Part shown: one piece after another, positions 30,495 to 30,561 of the stretch | Layout of the letters: every line of letters starts with the position of its first letter | Numbering within the stretch: position 1 is the stretch's first letter | From: Thermaerobacter sp. FW80 | GTDB lineage: Bacteria; Bacillota; Sulfobacillia; Thermaerobacterales; Thermaerobacteraceae | Assembly: GCF_004634385.1 (NCBI RefSeq) | Contig: NZ_CP037895.1 | Coordinates: 1,587,245 to 1,651,244, forward strand | Length of the DNA: 64,000 nt | Reading direction: 5' to 3' | The notes under the pieces: model-generated | What the model was told of the DNA's origin: nothing | Databases searched by the model: none | What the model saw: the letters and a program-made list of their open reading frames with translations, nothing else | Program-made: the position numbers and the translations under genes

Positions 30495-30561
30495 GGGGCC
30501 CATCCGCATACCGGCTGCGGCTGCGAATGGGCCCCGTTGCCCCCTTGGGACGCCGTCGTCC
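30495..30561 (-). promoter_or_regulatory. ANTAR-like attenuator in the amt leader
   Basis: On the minus strand: P1 GGAC-GACGGC-GTCC (30561-30548), 5-nt linker, P2 GGGC-AACGGG-GCCC (30542-30529), then a terminator pairing 30535-30522 with 30508-30495 (13 of 14 bp), followed by TTTCCTTT. The 3' arm of P2 lies inside the terminator's 5' arm, as in the glnR leader. The P2 loop has A1 and G4; the P1 loop has G at position 1 instead of A, so this copy is less perfect. Confidence 0.6.

Follow-up and report, generated by a model that had tools for sequence, protein, structure and literature searches.

Genetic organization of the locus

The window analysed here, a 64-kb stretch of DNA from the Thermaerobacter genome G000, carries in order a glnR-type MerR gene, glnA, and a gene for an ANTAR protein, all on the plus strand, followed by amt on the minus strand and asnB on the plus strand (Table 1). 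A corresponding set of genes in matching order is found in three other genomes of the genus (G001, G002, and G003), and a genome from another genus of the same family (G004) serves as an outgroup. The G000 genome has no other ANTAR gene than this one (PF03861, 75.8 bits), and 0.2 kb separates its 3′ end from that of amt. The original prediction held that a single regulator has two RNA targets placed on either side of it, one before glnR and one before amt, and this layout recurs in 3/3 same-genus genomes, each of which has the ANTAR gene beside its amt element and a second element before glnR-glnA.

Table 1. Features at the glnR-glnA-amt locus; positions are those of the window.
Feature	Position	Strand	Basis
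ANTAR-type element of the glnR-glnA leader, loops AACGGC/AACGGC; terminator to about 26430	26357..26396	+	descriptor, model
MerR-family regulator gene (glnR of the original prediction), start uncertain	26445..26789	+	
glnA, glutamine synthetase	26923..28257	+	
ANTAR protein gene, tail to tail with amt; start codon placed by comparison with homologues	28657..29412	+	PF03861
amt remnant, 234 aa	29608..30312	-	Pfam match positions 222-399; alignment to G004 Amt
T-rich tail TTTCCTTT	30487..30494	-	sequence
Intrinsic terminator: stem of 14 pairs, one of them G-U, and a loop of 13 nt	30495..30535	-	sequence, fold
P2 hairpin GGGC-AACGGG-GCCC, half of the antiterminator, with the canonical A1 and G4 in its loop	30529..30542	-	sequence, fold
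P1 hairpin GGAC-GACGGC-GTCC, 4 bp and 6-nt loop, or 5 bp and ACGG if G1 pairs with C6	30548..30561	-	sequence, fold, homologues
Putative promoter: TTGACG (30651-30646), 18 nt, TACGTT (30627-30622)	30622..30651	-	alignment; weak
asnB, divergent neighbour, beside amt in G001-G004	30814..32661	+	

Anatomy of the amt leader

Read on the minus strand from 30561 to 30487, the leader of amt consists of the P1 hairpin, a linker, the P2 hairpin, the remainder of a 14-pair terminator, and the tail TTTCCTTT. The anatomy first described, with loops GACGGC and AACGGG in hairpins 5 nt apart and the second hairpin overlapping the arm of a 13-of-14-bp terminator, can be read directly in the sequence, where Watson-Crick pairs account for 13 of the 14 stem positions and a G-U for the remaining one. 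The linker between P1 and P2 is CAAGG, which at 5 nt falls inside the 5-12 nt range of the E. faecalis eut leaders. The terminator arms GGGGCCCATTCGCA and TGCGGATGGGCCCC occupy 30535-30522 and 30508-30495, with 13 nt between them, and since the 5′ arm starts at position 4 of the P2 loop, P2 and the terminator are mutually exclusive. Folded alone, 30496-30533 gives -28.1 kcal/mol (z -4.7), a value matched in 0/200 shuffles, and the whole leader is predicted to fold into the terminator form. The T tail TTTCCTTT is interrupted, a feature that counts against the ANTAR-antiterminator explanation.

Generic scans recovered little of this. A scan for intrinsic terminators did not list the one before amt because its loop has 13 nt and the scan takes loops of 3-8 nt, and no promoter passed a consensus promoter scan at the amt leader. 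The TTGACG box of the putative promoter is kept in G001, G002, and G003, where the second box is TATCTT-like.

Homologous leaders in related genomes

Comparison with intact amt leaders of relatives had been named as a check on the prediction, and the paired loops are present in them. In the three same-genus genomes searched (3/3), an element with loops AGCGGC/AACGGA lies upstream of an intact amt, has the GGAC/GTCC and GGGC/GCCC stems of the G000 copy as well as a terminator, and passes the strict rule of A1 and G4 in both loops. The outgroup, in which amt is likewise intact, has loops GATGGT/GACGGA. Other amt leaders carry elements with loops AACGGC/GAGGAT (G006), AGTGAG/AAAGGC (G027), and GATGGG/AAGGGA (G046, before an intact amt), and one with loops AAGGGT/AAGGGC and a poor T tail was recognized by eye in G040. 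Among G000, G001, and G004, the element is 74-78% identical and the flanking blocks 53-66%, and the terminator stem shows paired changes, T-A in G000 being C-G in G001 and T-G in G004.

Pairing was counted over 17 elements, G040 being left out, whose hairpins were registered by hand because MAFFT broke up the 3′ side of the P1 stem in three alignments. P1 is paired in 68/68 cells, with exchanges among C-G, G-C, and T-A in its two outer pairs, and P2 in 66/68. Position 4 is G in all 34 of the 34 loops. At position 1, loop 1 has A in 13 elements and G in the other 4, whereas loop 2 has A in 15 elements and G in the other 2. Amt was found in 22/61 genomes searched, and a descriptor search detects an amt-leader element in 7/11 of those with an ANTAR match and in 1/11 of those without, this one being G004 (Fisher p = 0.012, for genomes that are non-independent, four of them coming from one genus).

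The amt gene and position 1 of the first loop

The amt gene had been described as truncated, and it is indeed broken, through an internal, in-frame deletion that keeps the start and the C-terminal part. Residues 1-33 correspond to the signal-peptide-like N-terminus of G004 Amt and the remainder aligns from G004 residue 276, so that, relative to G004, 245 codons (735 nt) are missing. The remnant can hardly form a channel, as its match to the Pfam Ammonium_transp family begins at position 222, and it is the sole Amt match in the G000 genome; the switch therefore probably governs a dead gene in this strain.

The C-terminal part of the remnant is 76% identical to Amt of G004 and 41-42% identical to that of G001-G003, compared with 82-85% for asnB and 95-97% for glnA between G000 and G001-G003 and 75% for asnB between G000 and G004. 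In a tree of amt, G000 with G004 and G001 with G002 and G003 form separate, fully supported groups; this tree holds 14/27 loci, the other 13 having been left out by a motif filter for lack of an open frame, and the G000 row fills 38% of its columns. From these sequence comparisons, amt of G000 is not orthologous to that of G001-G003, in which the transporter appears to have been swapped under a kept ANTAR leader. A regulatory leader would thus have outlasted the exchange of its downstream gene in one lineage and the breakage of that gene in another. Relative to G004, dN/dS is 0.143/0.625 for the C-terminal part of amt and 0.175/0.510 for asnB; compared with asnB, the remnant gives no sign of long relaxation in this measure, and because its dN/dS is not raised, the loss of amt looks recent.

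The element itself departs from the strict consensus at one position: both loops have G4 and loop 2 has A1, whereas loop 1 has G1. In the predicted fold of P1, G1 pairs with C6 in 94% of the ensemble, closing the hairpin to 5 bp and an ACGG tetraloop; this form is predicted at -6.0 kcal/mol, about 2 kcal/mol below the open hexaloop (-4.0 kcal/mol). P1 of the sister species, with A1, is an open hexaloop in 96% of the predicted ensemble. A tetraloop is likewise predicted for some real elements that have A1-U6, so closing of the loop need not abolish function. The folds nonetheless suggest that with the G1 variant the amt leader is a weaker target than that of glnR, and of the two explanations first offered for G1, a weaker site or a site decaying along with the truncated gene, the former is plausible. 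The latter is not borne out by the relatives: loop 1 likewise has G at position 1 in G004, in G046 with its intact amt, and in a third element of G002. Since the outgroup combines G1 with an intact amt of the G000 type, decay after truncation is unlikely to account for it. G000 and G004 share G1A2 where G001-G003 have A1G2, so that G1 may be older than the amt deletion, with the caveat that G004 is a single genome and carries G1 in both loops.

A more general form of decay would have the leader as a former ANTAR site, unresponsive in the G000 strain through G1-C6 closure and the death of amt, with a constitutive terminator remaining. The tetraloop predicted for P1 and the lack of the amt portion that matches Pfam positions 1-221 fit this explanation, as does the lower induction of EutV targets when loop position 1 of either loop is changed from A to U, as reported by Ramesh 2012 (PMC3369931). 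The sharing of G1 with intact amt genes speaks against it, and so do the terminator stem, which differs from that of the sisters through paired changes, and the tetraloops of real A1-U6 elements. In the EutV-RNA structure of Walshe 2022 (PMC8934654), moreover, no contact to A1 is described, and its authors propose that A1 prevents loop closure. Loss of responsiveness in this strain is thus a possible explanation but, on the whole of this evidence, an unlikely one. The point raised by that structure lends interest to the leaders described here: amt leaders with A1 in three species and with G1 in two lineages, together with one ANTAR protein and its two leaders, make up a compact natural test set that would tell whether A1 is needed for protein contact or just for an open loop.

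An assembly error, with amt intact in the organism, is improbable. A single genome of the species was available, and short similar stretches occur in the GC-rich sequence at the junction; the deletion is nevertheless clean, preserves the reading frame, and sits in a contig of 2.95 Mb, and the genome has no second copy of Amt.

Chance expectation and covariance models

A descriptor combining a dual hairpin and an overlapping terminator, with loops of the form [AG]NNGNN, matches twice in the 64-kb window, at the amt leader and at the glnR leader (26361, plus strand), in keeping with the common architecture that had been claimed for the two. In 400 block-wise dinucleotide shuffles, this loose rule yields on average 0.21 sites per 64 kb, falling to 0.015 sites when a terminator score of at least 10 is required and to 0.0025 when G4G5 is required as well in both loops, as in the amt leader. 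With the strict A1/G4 rule applied to both loops, the glnR leader is the sole site in the window to pass and the amt leader fails.

Two covariance models were used. R1 was built from nine elements that include no amt leader of the G000-G004 family, and R2 from five GGAC-type leaders, namely the amt leaders of G001-G004 and a eut element of G028, the window copy being left out. Searched against the G000 genome (3.04 Mb), R2 ranks the amt leader first at 32.6 bits (E 0.0046), the next match scoring 25.9 bits. R1 gives 24.6-26.3 bits for the amt leaders of G001-G003, 20.1 bits for the window site, and 17.3 bits for G004, on a background of up to 18.0 bits in 159 kb, where the E-value of the window site is 0.16; in an R1 search of the whole G000 genome at E ≤ 1, the site is near background and is not listed. 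A covariance score above background, which had been proposed as a check, is thus obtained with R2, and the first rank with R2 together with the weak R1 score indicate a site that is recognizable within its local family and only weakly by a general model. As a positive control, R1 found the element of G028, a distant relative (locus L085, 1502-1535, and locus L098, about 3799), with loops AACGGC/AATGGG. This element is flanked by genes that, from their protein sequences, we take to be eutS- and eutA-like, the classical setting of EutV. Across the phylum (398 genomes) and the class (154 genomes), R1 found no further element that passes the terminator filter at the model match, bar that of G040 by eye.

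A plain intrinsic terminator that happens to be preceded by a chance pair of hairpins, with no relation to ANTAR proteins, would be compatible with the loose-rule chance rate, the failure of P1 under the strict rule, and an Rfam scan that returned no match in the 64-kb window. It is very improbable given that the element is kept in place before an intact amt in four related genomes, that R2, blind to the window copy, ranks the site first genome-wide, and that an ANTAR gene adjoins it. Hardly credible is the suggestion that the hairpins work on the plus strand in the leader of asnB, which starts about 250 nt away, as inverted repeats are present on both strands but the plus-strand loops GCCGTC and CCCGTT show no A1/G4 pattern and the stem has no T tail behind it on that strand.

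The putative ANTAR regulator

The ANTAR protein encoded beside amt is composed of a receiver-like domain, lacking the phosphoacceptor Asp, and an ANTAR domain. At the phosphoacceptor position, presumably the end of strand 3 as judged from the receiver motif, the six aligned ANTAR proteins have W, R, R, R, Y, and N. AmiR of Pseudomonas, which acts with AmiC, is an ANTAR protein that is controlled without phosphorylation. An AlphaFold model built from six sequences (mean pLDDT 86) has RNA-bound EutV as its best structural match (TM 0.70), followed by Rv1626, EutV, and AmiR; the match to AmiR (1qo0) covers the fold of the whole protein, including the receiver-like domain, at 20% identity. With the phosphoacceptor Asp missing, a difference from EutV, control of the G000 protein by a partner or ligand appears more likely than control by phosphorylation. 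By alignment, six of the nine RNA-contact residues of EutV are identical (R142, K143, E160, Y164, M172, and R175) and three are changed, K147 to R, N173 to R, and R177 to P.

G004 gave no ANTAR match. Its glnR-glnA leader is canonical, with loops AACGGC/AACGGT, but glnA is cut off by the beginning of its contig, and on a different contig (L050) only a few hundred bases separate amt from the contig end. The absence is uninformative because contig ends fall where the sisters carry the ANTAR gene. No gene for a P-II protein (GlnB/GlnK) was found in any of the five genomes G000-G004 (1/6 with G006 added), so nitrogen sensing in these five may rest on another protein. In G003 and G001, a weak second ANTAR-like domain (21.5 bits) was noted in a long open frame at about 1501-1587 of loci L021 and L022, respectively.

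Proposed mechanism and relation to known systems

The proposal of an ANTAR-type attenuator before amt is upheld at the level of sequence by the anatomy of the leader, its conservation before intact amt genes, and the adjacent ANTAR gene. With a probability of roughly 85%, the element is a cis-acting ANTAR antiterminator/terminator, putatively read by the adjacent ANTAR protein. By default, the nascent RNA would form the terminator (30535-30495) and transcription would halt ahead of amt. Under an activating signal, which may be nitrogen limitation, the pseudo-receiver ANTAR protein from the adjacent gene would become active and bind the P1 and P2 hairpins, and P2, once held, would sequester the 5′ terminator arm, allowing RNA polymerase to continue into amt. 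The same protein should also act on the glnR-glnA leader. In G000, the switch probably persists as a relic after amt was lost recently, and the G1 variant of P1 probably predates that loss.

Several features of this arrangement are familiar from the EutV targets in the E. faecalis eut genes, as described in PMC3369931 and PMC8934654. Both have two short hairpins that can be drawn with 6-nt loops, although P1 of G000 is predicted to close to a tetraloop, and share G4 in each loop, A1 in loop 2, a short linker, AC/GU closing pairs of P1, an overlap of P2 with the terminator, and an ANTAR gene in the genome. The amt leader differs from them in the G1 of loop 1 and in its target, which is amt and not eut. 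Ammonium transporters and glutamine synthetase genes, the gene classes found in G000, are among the ANTAR targets listed by Ramesh 2012 (PMC3369931); because ammonium transporters are in that list, this kind of RNA switch is already known. NitR of Clostridium saccharobutylicum is an ANTAR protein for GS/GOGAT genes, as cited in PMC6316151, and by that description it resembles the G000 regulator in the ANTAR control of nitrogen-assimilation genes including GS. Judged by its sequence, the amt leader is a further case of a known ANTAR-target RNA, in which P1 departs from the strict consensus. Among the papers searched, none combines "ANTAR" and "Thermaerobacter", a result that says nothing about supplementary tables.

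A broader idea, which we put forward tentatively and regard as rather unlikely in full, is that in Thermaerobacter, in which no P-II protein was found, the pseudo-receiver ANTAR protein serves as the nitrogen switch for glutamine synthetase and ammonium uptake and has graded targets, with A1 loops answering first and G1 loops late. If so, the open A1 loops of the glnR-glnA leader would respond first and the G1 loops of amt, which cost about 2 kcal/mol to open, only at high regulator activity, and the leader would have outlived its gene, the transporter having been exchanged for a different one in one lineage and broken in a second.

Further candidate elements

The third element of G002 (G002:C1:685654; L092, about 1502-1575) is a near-copy of the glnR leader of that genome with GACGGC, and hence G1, in loop 1. 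It precedes genes for a substrate-binding protein and a livHMGF-like ABC transporter of the branched-chain-amino-acid type, gene types that were judged from translations without a family search. Exact matches to the P2 motif elsewhere in the genus and in G004 (4/14) were rejected, as they have neither P1 nor a terminator, and so was an R1 match at G000:1016604 (31.4 bits), which passes no terminator filter and looks like coding sequence by eye. In a distant member of the Bacillota (G289), a possible ANTAR-type element with loops AAGGTC/AAAGAA, overlapped by a strong terminator, lies at about 528 on the minus strand of L187, about 1 kb from the model match that had fetched the locus. Most of the loci retrieved with the ANTAR alignment were distant ones, rhizobial among others, and among the 80 kept of 445, plausible descriptor matches were limited to L130 and L157. 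The former, from Inquilinus limosus, has loops GATGCT/AAAGGC at about 10663, just after an ANTAR gene, and may be a distant case of G1. The latter, a 6403-base contig like C83 of G046, yields the element of G046 again.
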